From the NCBI RefSeq assembly GCF_029212645.1, contig NZ_JARGND010000010.1, positions 1-64,000 of the forward strand: a stretch of 64,000 nt of DNA, in the 5' to 3' direction. The notes under the pieces were generated by a model that was not told the origin of the DNA, did no database searches, and saw nothing but the letters and a program-made list of their open reading frames with translations. The stretch is from Vannielia sp. (GTDB lineage: Bacteria > Pseudomonadota > Alphaproteobacteria > Rhodobacterales > Rhodobacteraceae). The position numbers and the translations under genes were made by a program. This document shows, one piece after another, positions 21,132 to 42,027 of the stretch. Position 1 is the first letter of the stretch. Each line of letters starts with the position of its first letter.

Positions 21132-21142
21132 GGGCTGCGGAA

Positions 21143-25912: not shown

Positions 25913-25922
25913 GGAGCCGCAG

Positions 25923-27098: not shown

Positions 27099-27685
27099 AA
27101 CCGAGGCTGACCAAGGCAGACGTGGCGAAGGCCCGGCAAGCGTTCCATTCGGTCGCTGACATCCCGGAGTGGGAGCGGATCGCAGCCGCCACGTTCGGTG
27201 ACGATGCAATCGCGCCCGCGACTGCCGCTGGGGCAGCCGCTAAGATTGCGGCGATCTGGTCCAACATGACGCCTGCCGAGCGTGACGAATTCAACCGTGT
27301 CCTGTCAGCGCAGGTCGGAGAGATACCGGACACGCTGGCAATCGACGTTGGCGCGGCGGCGCAGATGATTGTCGAGAACGCGAGGGGGCGTGAGGGCAAC
27401 CCGCCGGATTTCCCCGGATTGCGAGAGGCGGTCCAGACCTTGATGCAGGCTTGGAAGAACCAAGGCGGGACGGTCCAGCCGGGCAGGCTCTACACCACGG
27501 ATGGCCGACAGCATCCGGGGGAACGGCCCATGCGCCCTACACCGACTGTGCGGTTTGTCGCCGCCGGTGTCTTGCGGGCAATCCCCGAACACTACCGCAT
27601 GATGAAGTGGCCGGACGCAAAGCGCCGTCTGTTGCATGATTGCTGGCGCCAAGTTGACCAGCTTCATCGAGCGCGGTCGCGCTAA
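27089..27685 (+). CDS. Uncharacterised protein overlapping int
   Basis: This is a roughly 198-residue soluble protein that I cannot assign. The N-terminal part (LTKADVAKARQAFHSVADIPEWERIAA) and middle are helical; the C-terminal third (VRFVAAGVLRAIPEHYRMM) is basic. It overlaps the integrase end by about 10 bases. The exact start is open: ATG 27077, ATG 27089, or GTG 27095, which has the best AGGA spacing. As a partner of the integrase operon it might act in excision, but nothing in the sequence shows this. Confidence 0.5.
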   Translation: MGVKPRLTKADVAKARQAFHSVADIPEWERIAAATFGDDAIAPATAAGAAAKIAAIWSNMTPAERDEFNRVLSAQVGEIPDTLAIDVGAAAQMIVENARGREGNPPDFPGLREAVQTLMQAWKNQGGTVQPGRLYTTDGRQHPGERPMRPTPTVRFVAAGVLRAIPEHYRMMKWPDAKRRLLHDCWRQVDQLHRARSR

Positions 27686-27780
27686 TGTCGAGCGTTTCCA
27701 CCCCCGATTGGCGCGACCGACCTATGGTCTAGGCCCCCGTAGTCTCTCCCCAGATGACGCCATATCCGGGGATAAAGACC

Positions 27781-27978
27781 ATGCCAGACGCAGACACACT
27801 GCTGACGATTGAGGAGGTTGCCGTGCGCACCCGCCTCTCCAAGCCCACCATCTACAAGCTGATCCGGCAGGGGGACTTTCCCCGCCAGCTCCGCCTCTGC
27901 GCCAACAAGGTTGCGTGGCTTGAGCGCGAGGTCAGCGCATGGGTCGCGGCCCGAGCTGAGGCGAGGACTGCGGTATGA
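27781..27978 (+). CDS. AlpA-like regulator / excisionase
   Basis: This 65-residue protein has a winged-helix MerR/AlpA pattern: LLTIEEVAVRTRLSKPTIYKLIRQGDFP, then LCANKVAWLEREVSAWV. AlpA proteins on P4-type elements control integrase expression or act as excisionases. The start is ATG 27781. Its stop overlaps the ATG of the primase-helicase gene, so the two are coupled. Together with the integrase type this places element B in the P4-like satellite style. Confidence 0.85.
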   Translation: MPDADTLLTIEEVAVRTRLSKPTIYKLIRQGDFPRQLRLCANKVAWLEREVSAWVAARAEARTAV

Positions 27979-30467
27979 GGGGAGATGAAGAAAACGCCCC
28001 CGGCGCGGGACAGCAGACCGGGGGCGAAGGGGAGCATGTCGAAGACAACCCTGACATCATCGGGGATAGTATAGCCCCGGATGGCACCGGAGCCGACCAT
28101 AAAGACTTGTTGCCTGACGCCGATGCGGCGGTGGGCTTCCTTGAGGCGTGGCGTCCCGGTGGGCCTTGGGTCCTGACCGCGATTGAGGTGGACCCGCCCA
28201 AGGGCAGGGACGGCGAGTCCAAGCAACCCCGCATCCCGACCGTGACCCTGACCACGGCTGACGAGGTGCGGCGCTGGGTCCTAGATCACAGCGGCGGGCG
28301 CTGGAACCTCTACTTCACCGTGAACGTGACGCGCAAGCCGGTCAGCAAGAAGCCGACCAAGGACGATTTGGCGTCAGCAACGGGCCTCCATGTGGACGTG
28401 GACCCGAGGCCGGGAGAGGACTTCGACAGCGAGCGCACCCGGGCGGAGAAGGTGCTGAGGGAATACAGCCCTGCGGCCACGGTCATCATCGACAGCGGGG
28501 GCGGGTTCCAAGGCTTCTGGCGGCTGGGCGGGGAGCTGGACCTGCCGGGCGAGCCCAGTGACGAGGCCCGCCACCTGCCCGTTGAAGAGCGGAACCTCAA
28601 GATTGAGACGGCCTTGCAGGGTGATAGCTGCCACAACATCGACCGCATTATGCGGCTGCCCGGGACCGTCAACTGGCCCGGGGAAAAGAAGCGTAAGAAG
28701 GGGCGCACGCCCGCGCTGGCGCGGGTGGTGTCGGCGGACTGGTCGCGGTCCTACACGCTGGAGGACTTCGAGCGGAGCCAGATGGTGGCGGCGGGCGCTG
28801 CCAGTGGCACTGCACGGGTCAGCCTGTCGCAGGACCTGCCCAAGGTGGAGGGGCTCGAAAGCCTGCCCGCCGCCGTCAGTGACCGGACCAAGATGCTGAT
28901 CACGAATGGCGACGACCCGGACGACCCGACCAAGTATCCGAGCCGGTCTGAGGTCCTGTTCGCCGTGCTGTGTGAACTGGTCAGGGCGGAGGTGCCCGAC
29001 GATGTGATTGCTGCGGTGATCCTTGACCCGGACCACGGCATAAGCGCCCACGTGCTCGAACAGCCCAACCCGCGCCGATACGCCCAGAGGCAGATCCAGC
29101 GCGCGCACGACCATGCGATTGACCCCGCGCTGCGCGAGCTGAACGACCAGTTCACGGTTCTTGAGAACGAGGGCGGCAAGTGCCGCATCCTTGAGTTTGT
29201 CGAGATGCCGACTGGCGTGAAGGGCAAGACCCGATCCGTGGTGACGCTCCAGAGCTTCGAGGACTTCCGCAACCGCTTCCTGAACCGCAGCGTGGTGGTC
29301 GGACGGGACAAGGACGGCAACGATGTGAAGATGGCCCTCGGCAAGTGGTGGTTACAGAATGCGGCCCGGCGGCAGTTCCACTCTCTGACGTTCCGGCCCC
29401 GCGATGGCGAGGAGGTCGGCACCGGCGCAACCCGCCAGTTGAACCTCTGGCAGGGCTTCACCGTCCGGCCCGCGCCGGGCGACTGGTCCCTGATGCGCGC
29501 CCACATCCGCGATGTGCTGGCCAGCGGTGACGAGGCGTCCGACAGCTACATCATCCGGTGGATGGCGTGGACCCTACAGAACCCGGATGAACCGGCGGAG
29601 GTCGCGCTGACCTTCCGGGGCGAGCCCGGGACCGGCAAGGGCGTGTTCGGCAGGACGATGGCGCAGCTCTTTGGGCAGCACGGCCTGCACACCGGCGGCA
29701 GTGAGATGATCACGGGCCGCTTCAACAAGCACTTCCGCGACTGCTGCCTGCTGTTCGCTGACGAGGTGGTTTGGGACGGTGACAGGAAGGCGGAGGCCAA
29801 GGTCAAGACCTTCCTGACCGAACCAACGCTTATGATTGAGGGCAAGGGCGTGGACGCGGTGACGTGGCCGAATATGCTGCACGTCATCATTTCGAGCAAC
29901 AGCGAGTGGGTTGTCCCTGCCGGTCCATTCGAGCGCCGCTATGCCGTGTTTGACGTGTCGGCCACCCAGCGCCAGAGGCGAGACTACTTTGCGCCGCTCT
30001 TTGCCGAGCTTGAATCCGGCGGGCTGGCGGCGATGCTGCATGACCTGCTGGAGATGGACCTAGGGCGCTGGCACCCGCGCGAGGACGTGCCGAAGACTGA
30101 CGCGCTGAACGACCAGAAGTCGCGCGGCCTTGATCCCGTCCACGCGGCGGCGCTCGACATGTTGCGCGAGGGGGCGCTGCCGTCCGACATATCCGCCGAC
30201 GCGCGAGGAACCGACGCCCGACCCTTTGTCGCCACCGGTGAGCTGGCAGCATTCGTTCAGCGCCAGACCCGGGCCGTGATAACCTCCGTCGAGGTGTCGA
30301 AGGTGCTGGACAAGATCGGCGCGGAGAAGAACCGCAAGCGTCGCCCCTCGGGCTACGTCCTGCCGCTGTTGAGCGATGCGCGCGCGACATGGGATGCGCA
30401 GCCGGACCTGCCTGCCCAGATTTGGGATGATGCTGCTGACTGGGCTGGGGGAGGTGAGCCGTGGTGA
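27975..30467 (+). CDS. Replication primase-helicase (SF3)
   Basis: This 830-residue protein has an N-terminal region (about 45-290) that resembles a RepB/primase fold, with DVDPRPGEDF and VIIDSGGGFQGFW holding likely metal and nucleotide ligands. The C-terminal D5/DUF5906-type superfamily 3 helicase has Walker A GEPGTGKG near 548, Walker B LLFADE near 592 and the sensor SSN near 636. It should start and drive replication of the excised element. The cluster of short repeats directly downstream is a plausible origin for it. Length and layout are normal for satellite primases. Confidence 0.85.
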   Translation: MRGDEENAPGAGQQTGGEGEHVEDNPDIIGDSIAPDGTGADHKDLLPDADAAVGFLEAWRPGGPWVLTAIEVDPPKGRDGESKQPRIPTVTLTTADEVRRWVLDHSGGRWNLYFTVNVTRKPVSKKPTKDDLASATGLHVDVDPRPGEDFDSERTRAEKVLREYSPAATVIIDSGGGFQGFWRLGGELDLPGEPSDEARHLPVEERNLKIETALQGDSCHNIDRIMRLPGTVNWPGEKKRKKGRTPALARVVSADWSRSYTLEDFERSQMVAAGAASGTARVSLSQDLPKVEGLESLPAAVSDRTKMLITNGDDPDDPTKYPSRSEVLFAVLCELVRAEVPDDVIAAVILDPDHGISAHVLEQPNPRRYAQRQIQRAHDHAIDPALRELNDQFTVLENEGGKCRILEFVEMPTGVKGKTRSVVTLQSFEDFRNRFLNRSVVVGRDKDGNDVKMALGKWWLQNAARRQFHSLTFRPRDGEEVGTGATRQLNLWQGFTVRPAPGDWSLMRAHIRDVLASGDEASDSYIIRWMAWTLQNPDEPAEVALTFRGEPGTGKGVFGRTMAQLFGQHGLHTGGSEMITGRFNKHFRDCCLLFADEVVWDGDRKAEAKVKTFLTEPTLMIEGKGVDAVTWPNMLHVIISSNSEWVVPAGPFERRYAVFDVSATQRQRRDYFAPLFAELESGGLAAMLHDLLEMDLGRWHPREDVPKTDALNDQKSRGLDPVHAAALDMLREGALPSDISADARGTDARPFVATGELAAFVQRQTRAVITSVEVSKVLDKIGAEKNRKRRPSGYVLPLLSDARATWDAQPDLPAQIWDDAADWAGGGEPW

Positions 30468-30497
30468 ACGGGCCTGATTGCCGAGTTCGTGCCGCTG

Positions 30498-30750
30498 ATT
30501 ACCGGGTCGGGGCTGTATCCGGTGAGCCCGGTAATGCCTTTCTGTTCGAGAACAAGCCATTAACCGGGTTAGCCGGGTTAGCCGTCCCATTTCCGTTCCC
30601 CCAGCTCGCGGGGCCTCTATGCCCAGAGGGCGAGACAATCCGGCGGTTCTGTTTCCGAACTTTATTCCCGGTTAACTCGGTTAACCCGGTTAAGTATAAG
30701 AGAGATAAGGGAAAAGTGATTACCGGGTTTAACCGGGTTTACCGGGTTCG
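30498..30750. repeat. Iteron-like repeat cluster, candidate replication origin
   Basis: About ten copies of a TTA(A/G)CCGGGTT-type repeat occur. Direct copies start near 30498, 30560, 30569, 30719, 30730 and 30740, and inverted ones lie near 30527, 30666, 30675 and 30683. Adjacent copies are spaced about 10 bp, one helical turn. The AT-richer spacer 30688-30720 (taagtataagagagataagg) could be the melting site. It follows directly after the primase-helicase gene. A 141-codon open frame crossing it has protein content dictated by the repeats and is not called. Confidence 0.65.
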
Positions 30751-31045
30751 TGCCTCGCTGGCCCCTCTGGGCAGTTTGCGTGTGGCATGGGCCGTCGTGG
30801 CCGAAACACCGAAACCCGCGTTGTGCGCCCCTCTTAAAAGGCTGCTCCTGATCCTGCGCCCCGCCGAGTTGGTCTTGGTGCTGTGATCCGCGATCCGCCG
30901 CGCCGATCCCCTTAGCCTGATCTTGCTGGGCAATGGCCACCCCGCAAGGGTCGCGCGATCTGGCCCCCTGAAAGCCCATATTCGCAGGCGTCTATCCCCG
31001 CCTAGAAAGCCACCCCCGGACCGACCGGCAGGGGGTGGCCTGCGC
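30751..31045. other. Region without gene; terminator at its right end
   Basis: No supported gene is seen. TGCCCAGAGGG near 30620 recurs inverted near 30762-30772, flanking the right part of the iterons. At 31009-31039 a 9-bp perfect stem (GCCACCCCC / GGGGGTGGC), read on the minus strand, is followed by TTTCT. It is the likely terminator of the minus-strand gene 31046-31447. Confidence 0.55.
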
Positions 31046-31447
31046 TTATCGCAGTTCCGCGATTGACCGCTGGGTGCCATCTGTTCCGAGAAACTTCCAG
31101 TTCCCATTCCAGACGTTTTCGTTGCCATCCACTATCGACTGGTTGAGCTGGTTGAGCGTCGGAAAGCGTTCTCCGGTATCCGGTCTGATCCACTGGCCGC
31201 CTTCGACCACGCCGGTGTAATGTTTGCGCTTGTAGTTGCGGAAAACCTCGAAGCCTTCTGCGAAATGGACGCCGCTTCGCCTATCCGTGAGGCCGTTGCC
31301 CTTCGGTGTGTCTTTGTTCTGCATCGGTGCGGGTTCGCCGCATTTGAGCAATCGGTTGAGGATGGCGTCCTCCGTGTCTTCCCCCGCCTGCCGCTGTGCC
31401 CAGATTGCCGCGAAAACCGCCGTCGATACTGAGATGGTCCTATTCAT
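31046..31447 (-). CDS. Small protein with RAMA-like C-terminal domain
   Basis: This is a 133-residue protein. The first ~35 residues (ISVSTAVFAAIWAQRQAGEDTEDAILNRLL) look like a short ribbon/helix DNA-binding start, as in SeqA-like N-termini. The C-terminal half (FRNYKRKHYTGVV, GGQWIRPDTGERFPTLNQLN, NGNWKFLG) fits the RAMA domain found with restriction and modification enzymes. It may sense DNA or act in regulation of the resolvase, which is divergent from it by 69 bp. The assignment is by pattern and moderately sure. Confidence 0.55.
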   Translation of the reverse strand: MNRTISVSTAVFAAIWAQRQAGEDTEDAILNRLLKCGEPAPMQNKDTPKGNGLTDRRSGVHFAEGFEVFRNYKRKHYTGVVEGGQWIRPDTGERFPTLNQLNQSIVDGNENVWNGNWKFLGTDGTQRSIAELR

Positions 31448-31516
31448 AGCTTTCTCCGATTCTGCTTACCGTCTATAAATAGCTAATAGTGCTAATTACT
31501 GCAAGAGGAGATTTTG

Positions 31517-32113
31517 ATGAGGAAGGCTGCGATCTATGCCCGGGTATCGACCGGCGAACAGACGCCCGAAAACCAGCTTATCCGCCTGCGAGAGGTGGCG
31601 GAGCGCGCGGGGTGGGCCATAGTCTGCGAATATGTCGAGACGGCATCCGGGGCCAGCCGCGCGCGGCCCGGACTGGACACGATGGTGAAGGACGCCGCGC
31701 GCCGCCGGTTCGACGTGGTGATGGCTTGGGATGTATCGCGCCTCGGGCGATCCCTGCGCGATCTGGTGGACCTATTCGAGACGCTGCGCAGCGTCGGCTG
31801 CGACCTCTTTCTGGAACAGCAGGCGCTCGACACCTCGACACCGGCGGGCCGCGCGCTCCTGCAAATGTCGGGCGTGTTCGCTGAGTTTGAGCGGGCGATG
31901 ATCGTGGAGCGCACGAAAGCCGGGATGGCCCGCGCCCGGGCGCGCGGCAAGCAGATCGGTCGCGCCCCGGCCTCTGACGCGCTGATCGACGCGATCCGCG
32001 CCCTGCGCGCGGACGGAATGGGGATGGACCGGATCGCGCGCAACCTGAAATGCGGCAAGGGCCTGAGCCAGAGGGTTTGCCAAGAGTTTGACAAGGAGAC
32101 GGCAGATGGATGA
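31517..32113 (+). CDS. Small serine recombinase (resolvase/invertase type)
   Basis: This 198-residue protein has the resolvase catalytic domain: nucleophile Ser in AAIYARVSTGEQTPENQ, then VMAWDVSRLGRSL and FAEFERAMIVERTKAGM. A short C-terminal HTH (ALRADGMGMDRIARNLKCG) follows. The ATG at 31517 has GAGGAG 7-12 bases before it. It might resolve multimers of the element or invert DNA; no obvious paired crossover sites were seen. It overlaps the next gene by 8 bases. Confidence 0.9.
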   Translation: MRKAAIYARVSTGEQTPENQLIRLREVAERAGWAIVCEYVETASGASRARPGLDTMVKDAARRRFDVVMAWDVSRLGRSLRDLVDLFETLRSVGCDLFLEQQALDTSTPAGRALLQMSGVFAEFERAMIVERTKAGMARARARGKQIGRAPASDALIDAIRALRADGMGMDRIARNLKCGKGLSQRVCQEFDKETADG

Positions 32114-32645
32114 AGACAGTTTTGACGCGGTGGCGCGCCGCGTGTCGGACGGCACCCCCGGCGGTCCGGCCTATCGCGTCGGCAAGCGTGGATTGGAGAT
32201 CGTGGAAGAGCTTGCCGCGCGCGGCGTTGCCGAGGCGACGATGGCCAAGGCCCTGCGGATGGGCAAGGATGCCTTTCGCGCTGCGAAGCGGCGCGATCCT
32301 GCGGTGCAGGAGGCAATCGACCGGGGCCGCGCGACCGAACACGACAAGCTCGTGGGTGTCCTGCATGATCTGGCGATGGCGGGCCAGTATGTCCCGGCGA
32401 TGTTCCTCTTGAAGGCCCGCCACGGATACCGCGAGGGCGAGCAGGCCGGAGCGAATGTGAACGTGAACATCGACACCGGCGGCGTTCTGGTGGTGCCGAA
32501 CAAGATGACGATGGAGGAGTTCCTTGAGGCCCAGCGGCAGGCGGGCTTGTATGACAGCCCAGTCCGGCCCGACACCGTGGAGCGCATCCCCGGACAGCGC
32601 ACCATCGAGGCGGTGCTGGACCCTGAGACCAAACGGGGTGACTGA
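32106..32645 (+). CDS. Small-terminase-like DNA-binding protein
   Basis: This is a 179-residue protein. An N-terminal HTH (about 25-65: EIVEELAARGVAEATMAKALRMGKDAFRAAKRRDPAVQ) is followed by a helical segment (MAGQYVPAMFLLKARHGYREG) as in small terminase subunits, then a variable tail. AAGGAG lies 8 bases before ATG 32106. In a satellite lacking capsid genes, a small terminase could redirect a helper phage's packaging to its own DNA. This is inferred from similar elements. A plain regulator is the alternative. Confidence 0.6.
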   Translation: MDEDSFDAVARRVSDGTPGGPAYRVGKRGLEIVEELAARGVAEATMAKALRMGKDAFRAAKRRDPAVQEAIDRGRATEHDKLVGVLHDLAMAGQYVPAMFLLKARHGYREGEQAGANVNVNIDTGGVLVVPNKMTMEEFLEAQRQAGLYDSPVRPDTVERIPGQRTIEAVLDPETKRGD

Positions 32646-32658
32646 CTATCGGGAAAAG

Positions 32659-33768
32659 CTAGTCGGGTTGCGAAGACGGGGTCGCAACAATACCTTCTAA
32701 CGCTTCTATGATAGCCTGATCCCGCGCCTGTTGCTGCCGGAGCAATTGCTCGATTGTTGCTAGTAGGGCAGCATTGGTTTCGCCGGTTGCCTGAACCGCA
32801 TCCGCAACGGCGGCGGAAACGCTCTCTATTGCGGCTTGAGAAGTGCCTAAGTCGTTTCCCAATGCCGTTTGCAGTTCGTCTATCTCGCCTCGGATACTTT
32901 CGAGAGCCGCGTCCATGACCGCAGAATCCTGCGGAACTCGCCAATACTCAGTATAGGCGATTTGCGCGACCGAGAAGACAACTGCGAAGATGCCGACGAG
33001 GATAGCCTTATTGGCGGCCTTGCTGTTCTTCTCTGCTTCTGTCGAGAAATTATCGAGGAACTCTGCCGCCGCAACTTGTAGACCATTCATGATCCTAAGC
33101 GCGTTCTCCCCGAAGCCAACGAGATTTTCGAGCCGATCTGTCATGTCGCCCAAACGCTCGTTCGTCTCGTGAGCCGGGTGCGGCGGGAAATCCATTGGCT
33201 CAAATGTCGCGGGTGAGGGGGCCCATATACTTGGTTTCGGGCCATAGATGCTCTCAAGGCCCTCGCTCTGTTTGAGAAGGTCTTCGCTGACGCTCCTAAT
33301 GCCAAGATTCTTGCTGCCGAGAAGACCGCCAAGTGAGCCTTTTAGGCCTGCGAACATGTCGGCCATCTTCGCGCTTTGCTTCTTGTTCTCCGCCTCTAGC
33401 ACCTTGAGCAAGAAATCCGAATCTGACTGATCTTCGCTTCTTTCGATCTCAGTTTCCTGCTCGAACGACTTGTCATTCGCGAGAAACTCGTGCGCGAATC
33501 TATTTACGTCTTCGTCGGTGAACGCGGCAAGTTCGCCTTCTGTCGGTTCGCTCGACTTTTCGCCGTCTCCTTGATCCTGATCTTCGACGTGGCTCTTGAG
33601 CATTATTCCCATAAGCGCTCGGATTGCGTCTATTGAGTTCGGCTGATCGCTCTCAAGGTGCTTCTCGATGGCTACGGCAGCGTTGACAGAATAGAAATAT
33701 ACGTCCCAATCTCCGTTATCCTCTGAACGGAAAACCCACTGGGGTTTTATGAGTTCTGACAAGTCCAT
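32659..33768 (-). CDS. Membrane protein with coiled coil, element B cargo
   Basis: This 369-residue protein starts at base 33768; a longer in-frame extension to 35487 runs antisense through other genes and is not used. Residues 1-150 are acidic and helical. About 200-260 is a linker with predicted coiled coil (MTDRLENLVGFGENALRIMN). One membrane segment (AILVGIFAVVFSVAQIAY) lies near 275-295, and the C-terminal 70 residues are heptad-like. The base composition is more AT-rich than the element core, which points to inserted cargo. No family is recognised. Membrane/coiled-coil cargo in satellites is often antiviral, but that is speculation here. Confidence 0.6.
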   Translation of the reverse strand: MDLSELIKPQWVFRSEDNGDWDVYFYSVNAAVAIEKHLESDQPNSIDAIRALMGIMLKSHVEDQDQGDGEKSSEPTEGELAAFTDEDVNRFAHEFLANDKSFEQETEIERSEDQSDSDFLLKVLEAENKKQSAKMADMFAGLKGSLGGLLGSKNLGIRSVSEDLLKQSEGLESIYGPKPSIWAPSPATFEPMDFPPHPAHETNERLGDMTDRLENLVGFGENALRIMNGLQVAAAEFLDNFSTEAEKNSKAANKAILVGIFAVVFSVAQIAYTEYWRVPQDSAVMDAALESIRGEIDELQTALGNDLGTSQAAIESVSAAVADAVQATGETNAALLATIEQLLRQQQARDQAIIEALEGIVATPSSQPD

Positions 33769-33960
33769 TCGTAAACTTCGCCTTTTGGGTTGCTTATGTC
33801 TGCCGCCTCTCTCTAGTTTACCCAGTCTTCCGAGATTGAACAGCAACGAATACCGCTCTGCCGCCCCAAGCGCTCGCGCTATAGTTGCGCATCCGGGGCG
33901 ATGGCGACCCTGACAGCGCAGTGGCAGCGCGTCGGCCCCCAAACCTGAGAGGACCGACCG

Positions 33961-34713
33961 ATGACCGCAACGCTTTCCCCCGACGACACGCCCCCGACCT
34001 TGCCCGGCGCCGGGACGCTCTATGGCCTGCCCGAACTGGCCGAGGCAGTCGCCACCGCGATCCAGATGGAAGAGAAGCACCGCGCGATGATCGAACGGCT
34101 TGAGGCCGCGATCTTGAAGCAGGCGCAGGATGCCGCCAACAGTGCGCGCCGCGCGGGTTTTGGCAAGCTCGACGCCCAGAACGCCGAAACCAAGATGGCC
34201 GCGAAGGCCCGCAATGACGTGCGCGCCGCGTCTGACGATGACCGCTGGGCGATCCTGCGCCAGCTCGACGCGCTGGCCTCGGGTCTGTCCGCCTCGGATG
34301 TTCTCTGGGCTTCGCCGGTGGTCGCTCTGGCCCGCGCCGGGATGGGCAGCGACAAGCGCACGAACCATATGGCGCAGCTTTCGGGCGCTGGCCCGGCGGA
34401 GTTGCGCACGGCGGCTGCGCTGGCCGCCGCCACGCTGGACAGGGTTCTGGGCGCCAGTGTAGCGGCCCTGCTGGACCGGATGCACGCAAAGCAGCGGATC
34501 GTGTCGCCGCAGGAACTGGCCGAACGCTTGATCGGTGACGATGTGCGGCAGGCCCGCGCGGCCATCGCGGCGGTGAAACAGGCGCACCAGCGCGCCCTGA
34601 ACGCTGACCGCGAGTTTGCGTCTGGCCGCCGCAACGCCACCGCCCGGATCGCATCGGCGCTGGCCGACCGGGACGCGGCGAAGAACGCAGGCGCGGCTGT
34701 GGAGTTGGGGTGA
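33961..34713 (+). CDS. Uncharacterised alanine-rich helical protein
   Basis: This is a 250-residue, Ala-rich, almost entirely helical protein without membrane segments or known motifs. GAGAGGA lies 7-13 bases before the ATG. Its stop overlaps the start of the following gene by one base, so the two form a pair. Phage-element helical proteins of this type can be scaffolding-like or regulatory, but I cannot assign it. Confidence 0.5.
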   Translation: MTATLSPDDTPPTLPGAGTLYGLPELAEAVATAIQMEEKHRAMIERLEAAILKQAQDAANSARRAGFGKLDAQNAETKMAAKARNDVRAASDDDRWAILRQLDALASGLSASDVLWASPVVALARAGMGSDKRTNHMAQLSGAGPAELRTAAALAAATLDRVLGASVAALLDRMHAKQRIVSPQELAERLIGDDVRQARAAIAAVKQAHQRALNADREFASGRRNATARIASALADRDAAKNAGAAVELG

Positions 34714-35090
34714 TGGATTTGGTCTGGTCGCGGCGGATCGCAGAAGCATACCCGACCCTTTTCCCGTGCCGCCTTCGTCAGGCCCATATGGCGCTTGTCG
34801 CCTGGGCCGAGGAGGCCAGCCCTGACGGCTGGCCCACACCCTCGGATGTGGAACGGTTCTCGCGGCTCTACGGTGTGCCGCGCGGCCCACTCGGGGCCTT
34901 GGTTGGAATGTTGTCGCGCCAGCCGGTGGCGGACCGGCGCGCGGTCTGGGTCGATGCTGTCCGTGAACCAGACAAGGCCACGCCGCACCTGATCCGCCAG
35001 CACGACCACAAGGTGGTCCGGGCCTTCGGATGGTTCTGCGCCACGACCGATCTGGGCTGGCTTCGCCTGCGCTCCCCGGTCCTGCACTGA
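34713..35090 (+). CDS. Uncharacterised protein, coupled to upstream gene
   Basis: This is a 125-residue protein with several Trp residues (LVWSRRIAEAYPTLFP, ALVAWAEEASPDGWPT, FGWFCATTDLGWLRL). It may be a small helical/HTH-like domain (PSDVERFSRLYGVPRGPLGALVGML). It is translated immediately after the helical protein gene. The function is unknown. Confidence 0.5.
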   Translation: MDLVWSRRIAEAYPTLFPCRLRQAHMALVAWAEEASPDGWPTPSDVERFSRLYGVPRGPLGALVGMLSRQPVADRRAVWVDAVREPDKATPHLIRQHDHKVVRAFGWFCATTDLGWLRLRSPVLH

Positions 35091-35194
35091 CCCTCAAACC
35101 GACCGCTTTCAGCGGTGGCGACCTTGCCCCGCCGTGAATCCAAGGAAACAGGGACGCGCAGGTCGTCCCCGGCGCGGCCCTTTCGGGGTGACCG

Positions 35195-35557
35195 TCAATG
35201 CAGGACGCGCTGCGCTGGGGCTGGTGCTGCCTCAGTCCAGCCATCCTGCTCCACATCATCCCACTCGCAGTCACGCTGGCCGTTGCGCCCGGCTTGGGCA
35301 AGTGCCCGCGCGGGACCTTCAATCCGGCCAATCCAGCGCTCCGGCCCAGTGTGCGCCGCCTCCGCCATCGCATCACCCAAGATCGCCGCCGCATGGTCAA
35401 CCGGCCAGAGGTCATCGCGCATTGCAGCCAAGGCAAGCTCCGCGACCTCCAGCCCGGCCAGCGCCAGAAAGTGGTAGTCGATGCCATCGTGTTCCGGCGC
35501 GGCCTTGATCTGCTCCATCAGCCGGGCAATGGCCTGCTCATGCTCCTTCATATCCAC
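35195..35557 (-). CDS. Uncharacterised small helical protein
   Basis: This is a 120-residue protein. I place the start at the GTG at 35557 because AGGA lies 8 bases upstream; a longer frame begins further up without such a site. The sequence (EHEQAIARLMEQIKAAPEHDGIDY, AALAAMRDDLWPVDHAAAILG-like helices) is rich in Ala and acidic residues. It resembles small proteins seen on other mobile elements, with no known role. It is convergent with the gene pair at 33961-35090. Confidence 0.55.
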   Translation of the reverse strand: MDMKEHEQAIARLMEQIKAAPEHDGIDYHFLALAGLEVAELALAAMRDDLWPVDHAAAILGDAMAEAAHTGPERWIGRIEGPARALAQAGRNGQRDCEWDDVEQDGWTEAAPAPAQRVLH

Positions 35558-35620
35558 GGGAGTGTTCCTTTCGTGTTTGGGCGGAGCGCCGCCCGACACC
35601 GCGCCGGGCGGCGCGGGGCT

Positions 35621-35917
35621 TCAGGCTGACTTGAAATTGAAAGTCACGCGCTCGCCGTCCATCGACACGCGGACGCTCGGATTGTCGGCTGTCGCGGCAT
35701 TCAGCACCGCGACAGCCTCGTTCATCCGTTCAATTGCGCGGGTGAGGTATGGGTCGCCTTCGGGTGACTTCTCGGGCGTGGCCCAGAAAGTGGACCCTTC
35801 CTTGCTGTCCATATGAAGCGTGCAATGTCCCGCGAGGCGTCTGGAATATTGATCGACCCGCCTTGCCGCTTCGATGACCTCTGCGAAGGTCAGTTCGCGT
35901 TTGGTGTTCTCTCCCAT
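35621..35917 (-). CDS. Uncharacterised small protein, element B
   Basis: This is a 98-residue protein starting at 35917, with AAGGAGA 4-10 bases upstream. It has an N-terminal helix (RELTFAEVIEAARRVDQYSRRL), a beta-rich middle, and a C-terminal beta segment (SVRVSMDGERVTFNF). It is transcribed leftward, with the next gene at 35557 in the same orientation, and divergent from the XRE/ImmA pair. The function is unknown. Confidence 0.55.
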   Translation of the reverse strand: MGENTKRELTFAEVIEAARRVDQYSRRLAGHCTLHMDSKEGSTFWATPEKSPEGDPYLTRAIERMNEAVAVLNAATADNPSVRVSMDGERVTFNFKSA

Positions 35918-36076
35918 TGATCTTCTCCTTTTCCATCCGGCCCCATTGGCCAGTGGAAGGAGAATTGCCACACCGCGCGCCCCGTGTCGGTCGCGCCAAT
36001 CGGGCGCGGTTCCGGCGGGGATTAGTGCGACGGTTGGGCTGTTAACCTCTTGGGGAGGAAAAATTAACCAACAAGG

Positions 36077-36112
36077 TTGACAGCTCCGCGCGGACACCAC
36101 ATATTGGGTGTC
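36077..36112 (+). promoter_or_regulatory. Promoter and operator of the XRE/ImmA pair
   Basis: TTGACA at 36077-36082 and CATATT at 36100-36105 are 17 bp apart. The dyad GACACC (36093-36098) / GGTGTC (36107-36112) straddles the -10 box, so bound repressor would block polymerase. Binding by the HTH protein encoded 21 bp downstream (autoregulation) is the natural reading. Confidence 0.65.
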
Positions 36113-36132
36113 GAACCACCAGGAGACCAACC

Positions 36133-36489
36133 ATGACCACAGAAATCGGGAAGGAGCTGCGGAAACTGCGAATTGATGAGGATGAACGACTGTTGGATAT
36201 GGCCGCAAGGCTTGAGAAGTCCTCCGCGTTCATCTCCGCCGTAGAGCGGGGGACTAAGACCCCGCCCGAAGGCTTTGTTGAGCTTGTGATCCGGGCCTAC
36301 AGGCTGGCTGAGGATGCCGCAGCATCTCTCCGCCGGGCCGCCGACAGATCACGCAAAAACTTTACTCTGGAGGCAGACAGCCTCTTGGCGAGGGACACCG
36401 CAGGGCTGATGGCCCGCCGGATGAATTCGCTGTCCGAGGATGAGCTCAACAACATCTTCCAAATCCTCAGCAAGAAGGACGCGAAATGA
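36133..36489 (+). CDS. XRE-family HTH repressor of element B
   Basis: This 118-residue protein has a classical HTH at about 5-60 (GKELRKLRIDEDERLLDMAARLEKSSAFISAVERG). CAGGAG precedes the start. The stop overlaps the start of the ImmA-like peptidase gene by 4 bases. In mobile elements such pairs form a switch: the repressor keeps the element silent and the peptidase cleaves it upon DNA damage or helper signals. The dyad over its own promoter supports autoregulation. Confidence 0.85.
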   Translation: MTTEIGKELRKLRIDEDERLLDMAARLEKSSAFISAVERGTKTPPEGFVELVIRAYRLAEDAAASLRRAADRSRKNFTLEADSLLARDTAGLMARRMNSLSEDELNNIFQILSKKDAK

Positions 36490-37025
36490 CTGAGACGAAT
36501 GACTTCATTGTGCCGCCGCGCCGCTGGGCGGAAATCGGCGGCATCGCGGACAACCTCCGCCACCAACTCGGGCAGGCACAAACGCCCTGTGTGCCGGTGA
36601 TCGAGATCATTGAGCGCGTGCTGGACCAGCGGCTCGGGCTCCTCAACTTTGAGGTTGGGAGCCAAAAGGAAATGGGCCGTGCGGAGGGCTACACCTGCCC
36701 CAAGGGCGAATTCATTATGCTCCGCGAGGATGTTTATGAGGGTGTCTGGGCGGGTGAGGGTCGCGCACGGTTCACCACCGCCCATGAGTTGGGCCACTGG
36801 GCGATGCATACCAACATCCCGCTCGCCCGGGCGCGGAGGGGGGATGGCACCCCGTCCTTCCGTCTGGCCGAGCCGCAGGCGAACCAGTTTGCCGCAGAGT
36901 TCCTGATGCCGGAGTGCTTCATTGACGCTCTGGACGATGAGGATGACCTGATACAGCGCTTCGGCGTCTCGTGGGAGGCGGCGCGCAACCGGCTGCGCTA
37001 CCTCCACAAAAACGGGAGGCTCTAA
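36486..37025 (+). CDS. ImmA/IrrE-type metallopeptidase
   Basis: This 179-residue protein has the HExxH zinc motif in FTTAHELGHWAMH (about 100-104). Downstream, FAAEFLMPE provides the third ligand, as in ImmA/IrrE (DUF955) proteins. It is translationally coupled to the XRE repressor. ImmA proteins inactivate their cognate repressor by cleavage and so derepress the element; I infer the same here. Confidence 0.9.
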   Translation: MTETNDFIVPPRRWAEIGGIADNLRHQLGQAQTPCVPVIEIIERVLDQRLGLLNFEVGSQKEMGRAEGYTCPKGEFIMLREDVYEGVWAGEGRARFTTAHELGHWAMHTNIPLARARRGDGTPSFRLAEPQANQFAAEFLMPECFIDALDDEDDLIQRFGVSWEAARNRLRYLHKNGRL

Positions 37026-37194
37026 CGAAAGAAGGCTCAGGTTGGCGCCCGAGCCTCCTCGCAGATTTCTTCATCGTGCATCAGGGGCTTGACGATGCAG
37101 AGCCTCCCGGAAGCGCAAATCAGTCTCCTAAGCAAGACTGCACATAGCGCAATCTGGGTCTAAAGGCAAGATACGCCCCGAAGTGGAGAGTGTA

Positions 37195-37332
37195 ATGACC
37201 AAGCGTCACACACCCCCTCCGCCGGGATACCGGTATGTCTTCCGCCCTTGGCGGACATGCCCAAAGACCGGCACCCGGCTCTACGCGAAAGCGTTTGGGC
37301 TGCGGGCGTGGCCTATTCTGATCCCGGAATAG
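37195..37332 (+). CDS. 45-residue basic protein
   Basis: This is a small protein (MTKRHTPPPPGYRYVFRPWR at the N-terminus) ending AWPILIPE. GGAGAG sits 5-10 bases before the ATG. The YRYVFRPWRTCPKTGTRLYAK stretch has the look of small conserved proteins on phage-type elements of this bacterial family. No function is known. Confidence 0.55.
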   Translation: MTKRHTPPPPGYRYVFRPWRTCPKTGTRLYAKAFGLRAWPILIPE

Positions 37333-37406
37333 ACACCCCACCCAGATCAACGGGAGGCGCGATTAGCGTGCCTCCCACCCACCATGCACTAATGAAAGCA
37401 GAATAG

Positions 37407-37523
37407 ATGAAATCGAAATCGTTCAAAGTTGGCCGCAGCGCCAAGACTGGCCGCTTCACCACGGTCAAGAAGGCCACGCAACGCAAGTCCACCCACGTGG
37501 TGGAGACCATCAAGAAGAAGTGA
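37407..37523 (+). CDS. 38-residue Lys-rich protein
   Basis: This very short, very basic protein (VGRSAKTGRFTTVKKATQ core) has 10 Lys residues and is probably a nucleic-acid binder. It has a weak ribosome site. I have a sense that peptides with a 'GRSAKTGRFTTV' core are common small annotated proteins in proteobacteria, but this is recollection and not shown by the sequence. Confidence 0.5.
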   Translation: MKSKSFKVGRSAKTGRFTTVKKATQRKSTHVVETIKKK

Positions 37524-37584
37524 CGGCCATCGTCGTGCCCTGCGACAGAGCTTCGCGGGGCACGACAGTTCACAGGAGATAAGC

Positions 37585-37989
37585 ATGGTAGAATACACTG
37601 ACCTGCCGCCCGAGGCGGCTGAGCTGATCCAGCGCCAGTATGACATTGACCGCGCCGACGCCGGACCAAAGGCCCCGGTTTCCAGCTTCCGCTACCGGGG
37701 CGTCCAGATTGAGAGCCGGTGGGCGGTCATGGCAGAGCTGGACACCATGCGCCGGATCATCGACGCGATGCCCGAGCTTATGGCGCGCCGTCTCGAAACA
37801 ATCTGGTGCGATTCAAATGCCGGGGCTTGTTACACGGTGACCGTCCGGCCCGGCCTCTGGCTGCCCGACCTCCGCTGGGCAATCGCTGACGCTGTGATGG
37901 AGGCTGGGGGCGGCCACAACGGCATCATGGTCGAGGCGGACGGCGGCAATGGCTGCGACATCGACCCTGACTGGGGCGAGGTGGCGTGA
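37585..37989 (+). CDS. Uncharacterised protein near right end of element B
   Basis: This is a 134-residue protein with AGGAG 7-11 bases before ATG 37585. It is helical in the first 90 residues (EAAELIQRQYDIDRADA, AELDTMRRIIDAMPELMARRL), then beta-like with a Gly/Asn-rich end. It is the last gene before the integrase arm repeats and the carried tRNA. No family is recognised. Confidence 0.5.
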   Translation: MVEYTDLPPEAAELIQRQYDIDRADAGPKAPVSSFRYRGVQIESRWAVMAELDTMRRIIDAMPELMARRLETIWCDSNAGACYTVTVRPGLWLPDLRWAIADAVMEAGGGHNGIMVEADGGNGCDIDPDWGEVA

Positions 37990-37998
37990 GTCGCCTCC

Positions 37999-38018
37999 GG
38001 GTAACGCTGGGGTAACGC
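37999..38018. promoter_or_regulatory. Right integrase arm-type repeats
   Basis: GGGTAACGC (37999-38007) and GGGGTAACGC (38009-38018) are inverted copies of the left-end GCGTTACCCC. A direct copy lies at 38170-38179, between the carried tRNA and the right core. Their placement fits arm sites for the element B integrase. Confidence 0.55.
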
Positions 38019-38067
38019 AGAATTGACCCGTTGCCGGTCCCGTAAGTGCTTGATTTCGTGGGGTGGG

Positions 38068-38142
<75 letters not shown>

Positions 38143-38238
38143 CCGCTGTTTTCCAGATAGCTACCCCGGGCGTTACCCCGGATCAAGCGGGCTCTGGAAA
38201 AGCCCTTCAGTATCAGCCGCCTCTGCGCCCGGAGCCTC

Positions 38239-38278
38239 CCCTTACCAAGGGTGTGCTCTACCACTGAGCTACCACAGC
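38239..38278 (-). pseudogene. 5' half of split host tRNA-Thr(GGT); right junction of element B
   Basis: On the minus strand this is the 5' side of the host tRNA: acceptor GCTGTGG, D arm, and anticodon stem-loop up to the core CCCTTACCAAGGG (38239-38251). The sequence continuing into the element does not supply a matching T arm or acceptor, so the gene is not rebuilt at the junction. The partner half is at 25716-25763. Confidence 0.9.
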
Positions 38279-38394
38279 ATCCGTTCCGCCACCTCTGCGG
38301 ATGCAGCGCGCGGCGTGAGGGGCCTTTTACATCAGTCCTGTTGAAGTGCAAGCCTTCTCTATGGCATTTTCGGTGGCTTTCGCAGCTTCCCGCG

Positions 38395-39330
38395 TCAGCC
38401 AAATGCCGCGCGCAGATCAATCCGCCCGGTCCCGGCGCCTTGTCGCGCCAGATCGGCCAGCGACTCGTGCAGGCGGGTCTCGATCCAGGCGCTGGTTTTC
38501 AGGCGATTCGGATCTGGATGGTTGCGAACTGCGCGGATGTAGGGGTTGGTGTTCAGCTCGAACACCGCGTGCCCGCTTTGCGACGCGGCAAAATCCACCC
38601 GGCCAAACTCCATTCCGGTAACGGCCATCACCCGGCGCACCAGCCCGTCATGCGGCCATGGCTCCAGGGCGGCGTGATCGGCGGCATAGGCCTCGGCCCC
38701 GGCCGCTCCCTCCACGCCGGATTTCGCCACCCAGTGATGATCGCTCACCGTCAGCCCCGGGATGATCGCATCGCCAACGCCATAGCCCGACAGCTTGCGA
38801 AACACCCCGTTCTGCTCCGCCACTCCAGTATATTCGATGAAGGCCAGATCGCTCAGCGTGTGCCCCTCCTCCAGGGCGCTTTTCAATGCCGCAGCGGCGG
38901 CGTCCGGGCCTTCCAACAGGTCTCCGATCACCCCGCGATGCGCCCAGAGCGTCCGCAGAAAAACCGGAAACCGCTCTGGCACCTCGCCCAAGGCTGGCAA
39001 CCAGCAGGTAAAGCGGTTGATGCCCTCCCGGTGCAGCGCTTTCAACAAGGCCGCGCGCGGCAGGAACCGCGTTGGATCGTTCAGGACAGGTGCGCCCGCC
39101 GCCTTGACCCGCGCATGCAAGCGGGCGGCCACCTCAAGCCAGGGCGGCGACATCCGCTCGAAGTCGGTAAATATCGCCGCGCCCCCCGGCAGATGCCAGC
39201 GCCGCACCGCCTGTTCATAGCCGATCAGCTCGATCCGATAGCCATGTCGCCCGGCCCCTGCCCGCATCGCGCGAAAGGTGTTGCGCCGCTGCCGAGTGGT
39301 GAAAATCAGGAGGCGGGGCAGGGCTGGCAT
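38395..39330 (-). CDS. ATP-grasp-type protein, divergent from peptide gene
   Basis: This is a 311-residue soluble protein. The N-terminal half (LLIFTTRQRRNTFRAM, GAAIFTDFERMSPPW, LNDPTRFLPRAALLKAL) matches the pre-ATP-grasp and ATP-grasp layout. The C-terminal MEFGRVDFAASQSGHAVFELNTNPYI region carries the metal-binding Asp/Glu/Asn set. Such enzymes join carboxylates to amines, for example in peptide modification. It is divergent by 74 bp from a 50-residue Lys/Gly-rich peptide gene and a coupled HExxH gene. This suggests a joint peptide-tailoring role. The specific reaction is unknown. Confidence 0.65.
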   Translation of the reverse strand: MPALPRLLIFTTRQRRNTFRAMRAGAGRHGYRIELIGYEQAVRRWHLPGGAAIFTDFERMSPPWLEVAARLHARVKAAGAPVLNDPTRFLPRAALLKALHREGINRFTCWLPALGEVPERFPVFLRTLWAHRGVIGDLLEGPDAAAAALKSALEEGHTLSDLAFIEYTGVAEQNGVFRKLSGYGVGDAIIPGLTVSDHHWVAKSGVEGAAGAEAYAADHAALEPWPHDGLVRRVMAVTGMEFGRVDFAASQSGHAVFELNTNPYIRAVRNHPDPNRLKTSAWIETRLHESLADLARQGAGTGRIDLRAAFG

Positions 39331-39404
39331 TGGGTTATCCTTGACAGAACGTGGTGAATCGGCGTTACTTTTCGCACGTTAACCCAAAATGCAGGACCGA
39401 TAAC

Positions 39405-39557
39405 ATGACCAAGATTGACCCTTCCAAGCTGCTCGGCTTCAAACTCGATTCGGCAGAAGCCGAAGGCCTCAAGATGGGCAAAAAGGCTGGCATTAAACTT
39501 GGCGGTAAAGTCGGCGCCAAGGCAGGTGTGAAATCCGTCGCTGCCCCCCGGTCGTAA
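39405..39557 (+). CDS. 50-residue Lys/Gly-rich peptide, candidate modified-peptide precursor
   Basis: This short protein has an N-terminal part resembling a leader (MTKIDPSKLLGFKLDSAEAE) and a C-terminal part of near-regular Gly/Lys spacing (KMGKKAGIKLGGKVGAKAG) ending in VAAPRS. Its TAA stop directly abuts the ATG of the HExxH gene, so the two are translationally coupled. TTGACA at 39341-39346 with GTTACT 17 bp later is a possible promoter. A precursor peptide role is inferred from size, composition and neighbours. Confidence 0.65.
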   Translation: MTKIDPSKLLGFKLDSAEAEGLKMGKKAGIKLGGKVGAKAGVKSVAAPRS

Positions 39558-40568
39558 ATGAGCGGCCTTTCGGGCGTGGCACCAGCACCGCCCTCTGATG
39601 ACATCCTCTACGGCTTCGTTCCAGACCCGGCGCGAGGCCGCTTCCTTGATGCGCGGATGCATCACGAGCTCGCCGCCAGCTTGAGCCATTTGGCCGAAGC
39701 CAGCGCCGCAACGCCGGATGTCGCCGCCCCGCTCGCTGACGCCGCGCAACGCCTCGCGGCGGGCCAGCTTGTTGGCCCCGAAGCCTTCGCCCGCTACTTC
39801 CAGATCGCTGCCCAGCTCCTCGCGGACGAACCGAGCGGCCTGCCCGAACACCTCGCCGCGCTGACCCGCGAAATTGCCACGCCGCGCGGGGGCCTCACCG
39901 TCGTGCCACGCGGCGGCGCGGGCGAGCTTGATGCGTTGATGGAGCTGCGCATGGGCGCAGAAGCCGCCGATTTTGCCCTCTCCAGTGCGGCCAAGGCCGA
40001 AGCCCTCAAGGCCCGCCTCGCCGAAGCCTTCGCGCTGATGAAACAAGCGCTGCCGGATCTGCATGGCGAGTTGACCGCAATCACCCACAGGGTCGTCGCT
40101 GCAGAAGGGCGCAAGGACAGCAAGTTCCAGTTCGATGGCGCATCGCACTACCAGTTCTGGGGCATGTTGCTGCTGAACCCGGCCTTCCACCCCACCCGCC
40201 TCGCACTGGCCGAGGTGCTGACTCATGAAATCTCGCACAGCCTGCTCTTTGGGCTAACCATCGACGCACCGCTGGTGTTCAACCCGGACGACGCGCTTTA
40301 CCCGTCGCCGCTGCGCGCCGATGATCGCCCGATGGATGGCATCTACCACGCCGCCTATGTCTCCGCCCGCATGGCCTGGGCGATGGAAAATCTGGCCGCC
40401 TCGCCGCACCTTACCCCCGAAGAACGCACCGACGCGCTGAACCGCGCGGCAGAAGACCGTGCGAACTTTGCCGCAGGGTATTCGGTGGTTGAAGCCCATG
40501 GTGACCTCTCCGATGCGGGCGCCGCAATCATGTCTCGCGCCGCCGCATGGATTGCCGCCCCGCACTGA
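39558..40568 (+). CDS. HExxH-motif putative peptide-modification protein
   Basis: This is a 336-residue protein. The HEISH motif (LAEVLTHEISHSLLFGL, about 215-232) followed by PLRADDRPMDGIYHAAYVSARM fits the HExxH putative peptide-modification family (TIGR04267). Members sit next to small peptides in gene clusters. The N-terminal ~200 residues are helical. The coupling to the 50-residue peptide and the divergent ATP-grasp gene support a peptide-modification locus. No radical SAM enzyme is nearby, so it would be of a different build from the better-known clusters. Confidence 0.7.
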   Translation: MSGLSGVAPAPPSDDILYGFVPDPARGRFLDARMHHELAASLSHLAEASAATPDVAAPLADAAQRLAAGQLVGPEAFARYFQIAAQLLADEPSGLPEHLAALTREIATPRGGLTVVPRGGAGELDALMELRMGAEAADFALSSAAKAEALKARLAEAFALMKQALPDLHGELTAITHRVVAAEGRKDSKFQFDGASHYQFWGMLLLNPAFHPTRLALAEVLTHEISHSLLFGLTIDAPLVFNPDDALYPSPLRADDRPMDGIYHAAYVSARMAWAMENLAASPHLTPEERTDALNRAAEDRANFAAGYSVVEAHGDLSDAGAAIMSRAAAWIAAPH

Positions 40569-40613
40569 CGCCAGACTCTGGACGCGCCAAGCCCCATGCC
40601 TTATGGGGAGCGC

Positions 40614-40784
40614 ATGGCGAAGACCCAAAAGCCCTCGCGCGAAGACCGGCTGAAACAGGCGCTCAAGGCAAATATGGCGCGCCGTAAGGCACAGGCTCGC
40701 GCACGCGCCGCACCGGATGATGCGGGGCAGCGGGCCACGAGTAGTAAAGAGGGCAGTGATGGACAGGATTCTGGTCAAAGGTAA
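40614..40784 (+). CDS. Small basic protein upstream of murA
   Basis: This is a 56-residue Lys/Arg/Ala-rich protein ([20 protein letters not shown]). GGGGAG is 3-8 bases before ATG 40614. It overlaps the start of murA by 26 bases. Small proteins like this occur before murA in related genomes as far as I recall. The function is unknown. Confidence 0.6.
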
Positions 40785-42027
40785 CGGCGCGCTTTCGGGA
40801 GAAATTCCGATTTCGGGGGCAAAGAACGCCTGCCTTACCCTCATGCCCGCAACGCTCCTTTCGGATGAGCCGCTTACCCTCACCAACGCGCCCCGCCTGT
40901 CGGATATCGCGACGATGACCGAGCTTTTGCAGTCGCTCGGCTGCGAGGTAACCTCGCTTCAGGCCGGGCAGGTGCAGGCGATGTCTTCGCATGATCTGAA
41001 CAACCACAAGGCCGATTATGACATCGTGCGCAAGATGCGCGCTTCCAACCTGGTGCTTGGCCCGATGATCGCGCGGCTGGGCCATGCGGTTGTATCCTTG
41101 CCCGGCGGCTGCGCCATTGGCGCCCGCCCGATGGACATTCACATCCACGGCCTTGAGGCCCTTGGCGCCCAGATCGAGCTGAAAGAGGGCTACCTGCACG
41201 CCAAGGCCCCCTCGGGCCTCAAAGGCGCTGTGGTTGATTTCCCCTTTGCCTCGGTCGGCGCGACCGAAAACATCATGATGGCCGCCACGCTGGCCAAGGG
41301 CACCACCGTTCTCAAAAATGCCGCCCGCGAGCCAGAGATCGTGGACCTGGCCGATTGCCTGCGCAAGATGGGCGCGCAGATCGAGGGTGACGGCACCTCT
41401 GAAATCACCATTCAGGGCGTTGACAGCCTGCACGGCGCGACCCACCCCGTTGTCTCCGACCGGATCGAGCTTGGCACCTATATGCTGGCCCCGGTGATCG
41501 CCGGCGGCGAGGTTGAGTGCCTCGGCGGCAAGCTCTCGCTGGTGCAAAGCTTCGCCAACAAGCTTGAAGAGGCGGGCGTTGAAGTCACCGAAACCGCCCG
41601 TGGCCTCAAGGTCAAGCGCACCACCGACCGGGTGAAATCGGTTGATGTGGTGACAGAGCCGTTCCCCGGTTTCCCGACCGATCTGCAAGCGCAGATGATG
41701 GCGCTGATGTGCACCGCCGAGGGCGAGAGCGTGCTCGAAGAGAAGATCTTTGAAAACCGCTTCATGCACGCCCCTGAACTCACCCGCATGGGTGCCGAGA
41801 TCGAGGTTCAGGGCGGCACCGCCACCGTCAAGGGCGTGGCGCGGCTGAAAGGCGCCCCTGTTATGGCGACCGACCTGCGCGCCTCGGTCTCGCTCATCCT
41901 CGCGGGCCTTGCCGCCGAAGGCGAAACCGTTGTCAGCCGCGTCTACCACCTTGATCGCGGCTACGAGCACGTGGTGCGCAAACTCTCCGGCATCGGCGCA
42001 AATATCGAGCGGATCAGCGGCGAATAA
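40759..42027 (+). CDS. murA: UDP-N-acetylglucosamine 1-carboxyvinyltransferase
   Basis: This 422-residue enzyme makes the first committed step of peptidoglycan synthesis: it transfers enolpyruvate from PEP to UDP-GlcNAc in the cytoplasm. It begins [28 protein letters not shown] holds Lys22/Asn23. The catalytic loop [11 protein letters not shown] is at about 114-124; the Cys is the fosfomycin target. The length is normal. It starts the conserved murA-DUF2948-hisD run. Confidence 0.97.

Follow-up and report, generated by a model that had tools for sequence, protein, structure and literature searches.

Lys-Gly repeat peptides encoded beside HExxH-type oxygenase and ATP-grasp genes: a putative minimal RiPP-type pathway in Vannielia and other bacteria

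What might a 50-residue peptide be for, when its gene is joined without a gap to that of an HExxH protein and stands back to back with that of an ATP-grasp enzyme? The question is raised by a locus of Vannielia sp. (Rhodobacteraceae; assembly GCF_029212645.1), which we analysed within a window of 64,000 nucleotides (contig NZ_JARGND010000010.1, positions 1 to 64,000). The peptide gene occupies 39405-39557 on the forward strand (50 codons and a stop; ATG at 39405, TAA at 39555-39557), and the ATG of the gene for the 336-residue HExxH protein (39558-40568, forward strand) follows its stop with a gap of 0 bp. The gene of the 311-residue ATP-grasp protein (38395-39330) lies on the reverse strand, with 74 bp between the divergent starts (39331-39404). 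A first-pass annotation of the sequence had pointed out both the direct coupling and the divergent spacing, which the coordinates bear out, and had proposed a locus resembling those for ribosomally synthesised and post-translationally modified peptides (RiPPs), an interpretation now supported by gene content, by recurrence and by conservation of leader and core.

The reading that we favour, with moderate confidence, is a minimal RiPP-type pathway in which the HExxH protein would hydroxylate a Lys-Gly core and the ATP-grasp enzyme would form an amide, probably adding an amino acid. The precursor would be the 50-residue peptide, whose N-terminal segment IDPSKLLGFKL would serve as the leader for recognition and whose C-terminal part, built of repeated K-x-G-x-K, as the core. 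As an iron- and α-ketoglutarate (αKG)-dependent oxygenase, the HExxH protein would act on this core, the simplest target being the β-carbon of the conserved Lys; and the amide bond would be made on the core as well. This RiPP reading is supported and rests on gene content, a short precursor with leader and core being found beside a tailoring enzyme gene. Its parts differ in strength. That the peptide is an enzyme substrate is very probable. Its hydroxylation by the HExxH protein is likely and, to the same degree, so is the formation of an amide on it by the ATP-grasp enzyme. Lys is tentatively favoured as the hydroxylated residue, because Lys and Gly are constant and the residues between them variable.

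The strongest support comes from the precursor family. When each species was represented by a single genome, a scan for relatives turned up an HExxH relative at 89 places, the best 80 of which were kept as loci. Up to 3 kb from the HExxH gene, both strands were searched for precursor candidates, and 67 were recovered in 59 of these 80 loci; together with those of the window and of locus L043 they make a set of 69. The leader-like start and the Lys/Gly-spaced core which the first-pass annotation had read from the single peptide are borne out across this set, with a common leader L-D-x-x-K-L-L-G-F-K/R-L/I and a core of G-x-K-x-G-x-K repeats. In the window peptide, the leader corresponds to residues 1-14 (39405-39446, forward strand) with KLLGFKL at its end, and the core repeat region to residues 21-43 (39465-39533, forward strand), GLKMGKKAGIKLGGKVGAKAGVK.

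Since the search pattern itself demands Gly, an aromatic residue or His, an acidic, amide or Ser residue and some core Lys-Gly, conservation is partly built in at Asp (65 of 69) and at Phe rather than Tyr, Trp or His (62 of 69), which are forced or half-forced. Two positions that are not forced are conserved to a similar extent: Leu or Ile precedes the leader Lys by four residues in 65 of 69, and Leu or Ile also directly follows the basic residue of the leader, again in 65 of 69. Two controls made no demand on the core. A core-free leader pattern, run on both strands over the 897,105 bases of the 80 loci, matched 61 times just upstream of an HExxH gene on the same strand and only twice elsewhere, both times in precursor-like sequences. 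At least two KxG/GxK units followed the leader in 63 of 63 leader matches, compared with 298 of 8723 short open reading frames (ORFs) of the same loci, and the 63 tails held 502 such units in total against a mean of 130 after shuffling of each tail. The C-terminal half of the peptide is conserved as a pattern, far above shuffled sequences: of the 405 core Lys in the set, 337 are two residues away from a Gly on one side or the other, and 193 are followed by a further Lys at a distance of four. A lack of conservation in this half, which would have spoken against the first proposal, is thus not observed. Gly is the commonest core residue (17.0%) and dominates together with Lys (13.9%), Asp and Glu jointly making up 6.2%. 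Precursor and HExxH gene shared one strand in all 58 loci measured, with a median gap of 47.5 bp and one case 1121 bp away.

A leader-type precursor was not found by our regular expressions in 20 of the 80 loci, several of which hold other Lys-Val-Gly peptides with a PYGS-type start that were left outside the counts. Among distant loci with the second type of ATP-grasp gene described below, L092, L096, L101 and L104 encode small peptides that combine KVG units with a PYGS-like start, which may represent another type of leader. No NCBIfam precursor model was matched by six leader-type precursors or by one PYGS-type peptide, the single hit (E 0.034) being at chance level. Multiplication of the genes was observed in Histidinibacterium lentulum, where one locus (L036, 4782-6016) holds a run of six precursor genes together with two type-1 ATP-grasp genes, and two more HExxH copies are found elsewhere in the genome.

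The fold of the partner enzyme is that of ATP-grasp proteins, as judged by a predicted model of the window protein (mean predicted local distance difference test score, pLDDT, 95.2). Its nearest solved structures are the amino-acid ligases RimK (Z 19.8 over 262 residues, 3.4 Å), LysX (18.2) and ArgX (18.0), Z being about 18-20 for the best chains, but at an identity of 13-19%. These ligases act on small proteins or peptides. Lower scores were obtained with D-Ala-D-Ala ligases (about 15) and with the graspetide synthetase PsnB (14.4). No Pfam match was found for any of nine ATP-grasp homologues, window included, and up to an E of 1 no match to an NCBIfam family, those of RimK and LysX included, was obtained with the window protein; the homologue at L031 matched D-Ala-D-Ala ligase models only (E 0.058 and 0.093). 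E258 and N260 are invariant in an alignment of 9 rows, and R59, R244, D246, E258, N260, N262 and P263 in one of 43 rows, a pattern that we take to fit a working ATP-grasp enzyme.

Genes of this type (type 1) lie within 4 kb of the HExxH gene at 43 of the 80 loci, 34 of them divergent, 8 downstream and co-directional and 1 in another arrangement. At 25 loci, an ATP-grasp gene of another, cyanophycin-synthase-like family (type 2) was found within the same distance, both profiles having been built from members of these same 80 loci. The type-2 protein of L065, the one checked against solved structures, matched cyanophycin synthase 7lgn at E 1.1e-47, but it has 619 residues against 909 and the match is limited to residues 174-472. 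The window locus has type 1 in place of this cyanophycin-synthase-type domain. RimK/LysX and cyanophycin synthase share the ligation of amino acids to a peptide, and because of this we prefer ligation to ring closure for the amide step, a choice on which our judgement is evenly balanced. Type-2 loci such as L055, L067, L078 and L080 keep the leader (KLFGFKI or KLYGFKI) and the GxKxGxK core, whereas GxKIGKxP units occur at others, L065 and L081 among them. Since precursors on both sides of the partner switch share leader and core, these sequences suggest that two different ATP-grasp families serve one precursor family, the ligase having changed and the substrate stayed. On a quick tree of 79 HExxH proteins (L074 and L098, which are cut off, were left out), the distribution of type 1 and type 2 requires 3 partner changes.

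Ring closure would instead make this a graspetide-like pathway, with the ATP-grasp enzyme closing lactams between core Lys and Asp or Glu and the HExxH enzyme hydroxylating the result, as CorC does in corallotide. We consider this main rival unlikely. Lys is indeed repeated, and Asp or Glu occurs after the leader in 63 of the 69 precursors, including that of the window (D15, E18 and E20); in addition, corallotide couples an ATP-grasp enzyme with an oxygenase on its repeated KxxxD motif (PMC13097080). However, no acidic residue follows the leader in 6 of the 69 (L039, L042, L049, L068, L081 and L088), and graspetide-type rings therefore cannot be general, although they may form in the other 63, the window peptide included. 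In 25 of the 69, Asp and Glu are absent from the whole stretch that starts with the first repeat unit and ends at the C-terminus, and the three acidic residues of the window peptide are all in the linker, none in the repeats; acidic core acceptors are thus not a general feature of the family. The window ATP-grasp protein, with no NCBIfam match, is not a member of the graspetide synthetase family TIGR04187, and its fold is nearer to RimK than to PsnB.

The same RimK, LysX and ArgX matches, as top structural hits, would also suit a carrier-peptide assembly of the LysW/LysX or peptide aminoacyl-tRNA ligase (PEARL) type, in which a small molecule would be built on the C-terminus, hydroxylated by the HExxH enzyme and released. 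The size of the peptide, close to that of LysW, and the lack of an exporter recurring among the neighbours agree with such a scheme. Nevertheless it appears improbable, as the C-termini vary between precursors and the internal repeats are kept, and as up to nine K-x-G units in one core suggest repeated internal sites.

For the HExxH protein, the family assignment is firm. The window protein matches TIGR04267 (αKG-HExxH-type peptide beta-hydroxylase) with E 4.5e-29 and 101.7 bits (cutoff 40), as do, at E ≤ 0.001, 44 of the 59 members of an alignment, A3, which equals the number of its HExxH rows, the remaining 15 being precursors. We modelled the precursor and the HExxH protein as a fusion, the stop being read as Gln; from fusion residue 61 onward pLDDT is 95-99 in each block of ten. 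The HExxH model superposes on the HExxH domain of ChlH with Z 26.4 (310 residues, 3.6 Å) and on SjiH with Z 23.9, the next structural row having Z 10.2 over 77 residues only. H223, E224 and H227 of the HEISH motif (residues 223-227; 40224-40238, forward strand), as well as R253, R257, H264 and R271, are identical in 79 of 79 HExxH proteins of the tree. His264 (40347-40349, forward strand) is aligned with a His in ChlH and with a Gln in SjiH, and is possibly a further metal ligand. Because of the TIGR04267 match, the ChlH-type fold and the invariant residues, an oxygenase is more likely than a protease. Relatives with this activity are described in PMC12636437 and PMC13060819: PflC/PosC and PesO hydroxylate RiPP precursors, the targets of earlier family members being His, Asp, Phe and Gln, and that of PesO being Pro (PMC13060819).

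A protease-like role would mean that the HExxH protein cuts the precursor, hydrolytically or oxidatively at Gly, so that repeats are freed as short, perhaps amidated, peptides. According to PMC12636437, PflC can both hydroxylate and hydrolyse, hydrolysis taking place if the leader is absent, and PflC/PosC cleave the peptide backbone oxidatively, small residues favouring cleavage; the abundance of Gly in the cores agrees with this. Even so, we hold cleavage to be improbable, since the fold is that of ChlH, with zincin rows at Z of only about 5, and the HExxH homologues scanned match the hydroxylase family.

The family to which the window belongs was examined for joint occurrence of the three genes in 295 genomes, each from a different genus. 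Matches were obtained in 12 of them with the HExxH query, in 12 with the ATP-grasp profile and in 10 with the precursor profile (A5). All three genes were present together in 8 of the 295, which are all 8 genomes with a close HExxH gene and the same genomes that have a close ATP-grasp gene, and leader-bearing precursors were confined to these 8 two-enzyme genomes. In the other two genomes matched by the precursor profile (G132 and G204), the match concerned core positions only, inside frames of 661 and 540 residues with no leader. The peptide, whose wide occurrence without either enzyme would have spoken against the first proposal, is thus not widespread in their absence. Pairwise distances of HExxH and type-1 ATP-grasp proteins were correlated (r 0.81; 0 of 5000 permutations as high) over the 37 rows, window included, common to alignments A3 (43 of the 61 relatives listed) and A4 (42 of 43). 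Beyond Pseudomonadota, the gene set was found in scattered, mostly metagenome-assembled records of Verrucomicrobiota, Acidobacteriota, Planctomycetota and Cyanobacteriota. That the peptide is an unmodified regulator or antimicrobial, the enzymes acting on another substrate, is very improbable, for although distant ATP-grasp relatives exist without an HExxH gene, the three genes stand together in 8 of 8 genomes with a close HExxH gene and matches to the leader pattern lie almost exclusively just ahead of that gene.

Several observations weigh against the RiPP-type pathway that we favour. No ATP-grasp gene of either type was found within 4 kb in 12 of the 80 loci. A contig end truncates two of these loci (L037 and L098); L048 is an additional copy from Histidinibacterium, where type-1 genes sit elsewhere; at L059, the distal end of the stretch carries a type-1 fragment; and L094 and L095 are linked to the type-2 cluster by BLAST only. 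For L052, L087, L090, L091, L097 and L105, the lack is without explanation. When 'none' is added to the tree as a third state, the count rises from 3 to 13 changes (shuffled mean 30.4). Common descent will contribute to the correlation of distances. Within the family, 4 of the 12 HExxH-positive genomes have a distant HExxH relative and no type-1 ATP-grasp gene; the precursor profile gave no match in these four, and the co-occurrence therefore covers the close clade only. Likewise, 4 of the 12 ATP-grasp-positive genomes have a distant ATP-grasp protein (best E 1e-51 to 1e-58, varied surroundings) and no HExxH match. Glutathione synthetase and inositol-phosphate kinases also score Z of about 15 against the ATP-grasp model, above PsnB, so that the fold alone does not name the reaction. 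The precursor part of the fusion model (residues 1-50) stays below pLDDT 50 and was not placed, and the acidic residues found after most leaders belong on this side too.

The ATP-grasp family itself extends further. At L125-L129, ATP-grasp relatives were seen in varied surroundings with no HExxH gene in the fetched stretch, and the family is therefore wider than this pathway.

Few other genes recur beside the set. Neighbouring ORFs of at least 80 residues, picked greedily up to about 6 kb away, were linked into clusters by BLAST. The HExxH gene and both ATP-grasp types recurred, as did an ORF antisense to the HExxH gene (cluster 3, 10 loci), but none of the other clusters occurred in more than 6 of 80 loci, and no regular exporter, protease, immunity or further enzyme gene was found as a recurrent neighbour in this survey, which a rare or diverged partner would escape. 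Few neighbours were named by family search. ABC-ATPase-like ORFs (cluster 7, named by eye) were common to six loci, and L081 (6999-7700), L092, L102, L106 and L107 share a gene that resembles those of prolyl-hydroxylase-type oxygenases, also named by eye. At only 3 of 79 loci did a large ORF within 4 kb contain a radical-SAM-like (S-adenosylmethionine) CxxxCxxC motif, in line with the earlier remark that the set contains no radical SAM enzyme. Because no exporter is a regular neighbour, our guess for the peptide is an intracellular role or release through general pathways. A more specific proposal, which we regard as speculative and doubtful, is a new RiPP class in which a Lys-Gly repeat template hydroxylated by the HExxH oxygenase would be aminoacylated on its repeated Lys side chains by either of two interchangeable ATP-grasp types (RimK/LysX-like or cyanophycin-synthase-like), giving branched peptides with no dedicated exporter.

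The first-pass annotation had placed the locus in host DNA next to murA, which follows on the right and is confirmed at 40759-42027 (TIGR01072, 557 bits, cutoff 393). On its left side, the three-gene set begins just right of a tRNA-Thr gene (38068-38142). About 48 bp of this gene (38068-38115) are repeated at 25716-25763 with 92% identity, and an integrase-domain gene (25824-27098) adjoins the repeat; 25716-38142 is a probable integrative element with tRNA-Thr at its right end, and the peptide locus lies just outside. Pairs of helix-turn-helix (HTH) and IrrE/M78-type genes are common in mobile-element regulation, and an HTH protein followed by an IrrE/M78-type metallopeptidase is encoded at 36133-37025. 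A further mobile region (383-25726) carries genes for a TraI/MobP-like relaxase (383-2011), a VirD4-like coupling protein (21128-22750) and an XisF/Ccr-like serine recombinase (24182-25726), with NCBIfam scores below the curated cutoffs. A scan of 38100-40800, the 74-bp spacer included, gave no sigma-70-like promoter site. Spread of the set by viruses was considered and rejected, as no relative was found in viral contigs or phage records; four plasmid records held distant HExxH relatives only (27-28% identity over less than half of the query). An anti-phage defence function was likewise rejected, the three window proteins and the L065 ATP-grasp protein having no PADLOC match at E up to 0.1.

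How does this gene set compare with known systems? The HExxH protein resembles the αKG-HExxH peptide hydroxylases (ChlH, BpmH, PflC/PosC, PesO; TIGR04267/IPR026337) in family match, in fold, in HExxH and neighbouring conserved residues and in the position of its gene beside a small precursor, but differs from them in having an ATP-grasp partner and a Lys-Gly repeat core. The RiPP members of these oxygenases described in PMC12636437 and PMC13060819 work with radical SAM or multinuclear non-heme iron-dependent oxidative (MNIO) enzymes. Corallotide is alike in outline, with an ATP-grasp enzyme (CorB) and an iron/αKG oxygenase (CorC) on repeated Lys motifs; yet, according to PMC13097080, the motif is KxxxD with its acidic partner, CorC belongs to PF13640 and CorB to TIGR04187. 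The main text of a graspetide survey (PMC8939145) has no mention of HExxH, lysine or cyanophycin. No description of the HExxH and ATP-grasp pair or of the precursor family was found in searches of an open-access library, subscription journals being mostly outside it. To that extent, the suggestion that the three-gene combination falls outside described pathways holds: both enzyme families are known, but apparently neither the pair they form nor the precursor family is, and the gene set is probably a class of enzyme-modified peptide without prior description.

Taken together, these results offer a signature for genome mining, LDxxKLLGFKL followed by GxKxGxK, which no model matched in the six leader-type precursors scanned against NCBIfam. 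HExxH oxygenases have been recognised recently, and their pairing with ATP-grasp enzymes would extend the peptide chemistry of both families. The recurring pair with an ATP-grasp ligase, drawn from two families for one precursor family, makes a compact set of three genes, open to expression and to readout of its products by mass spectrometry.

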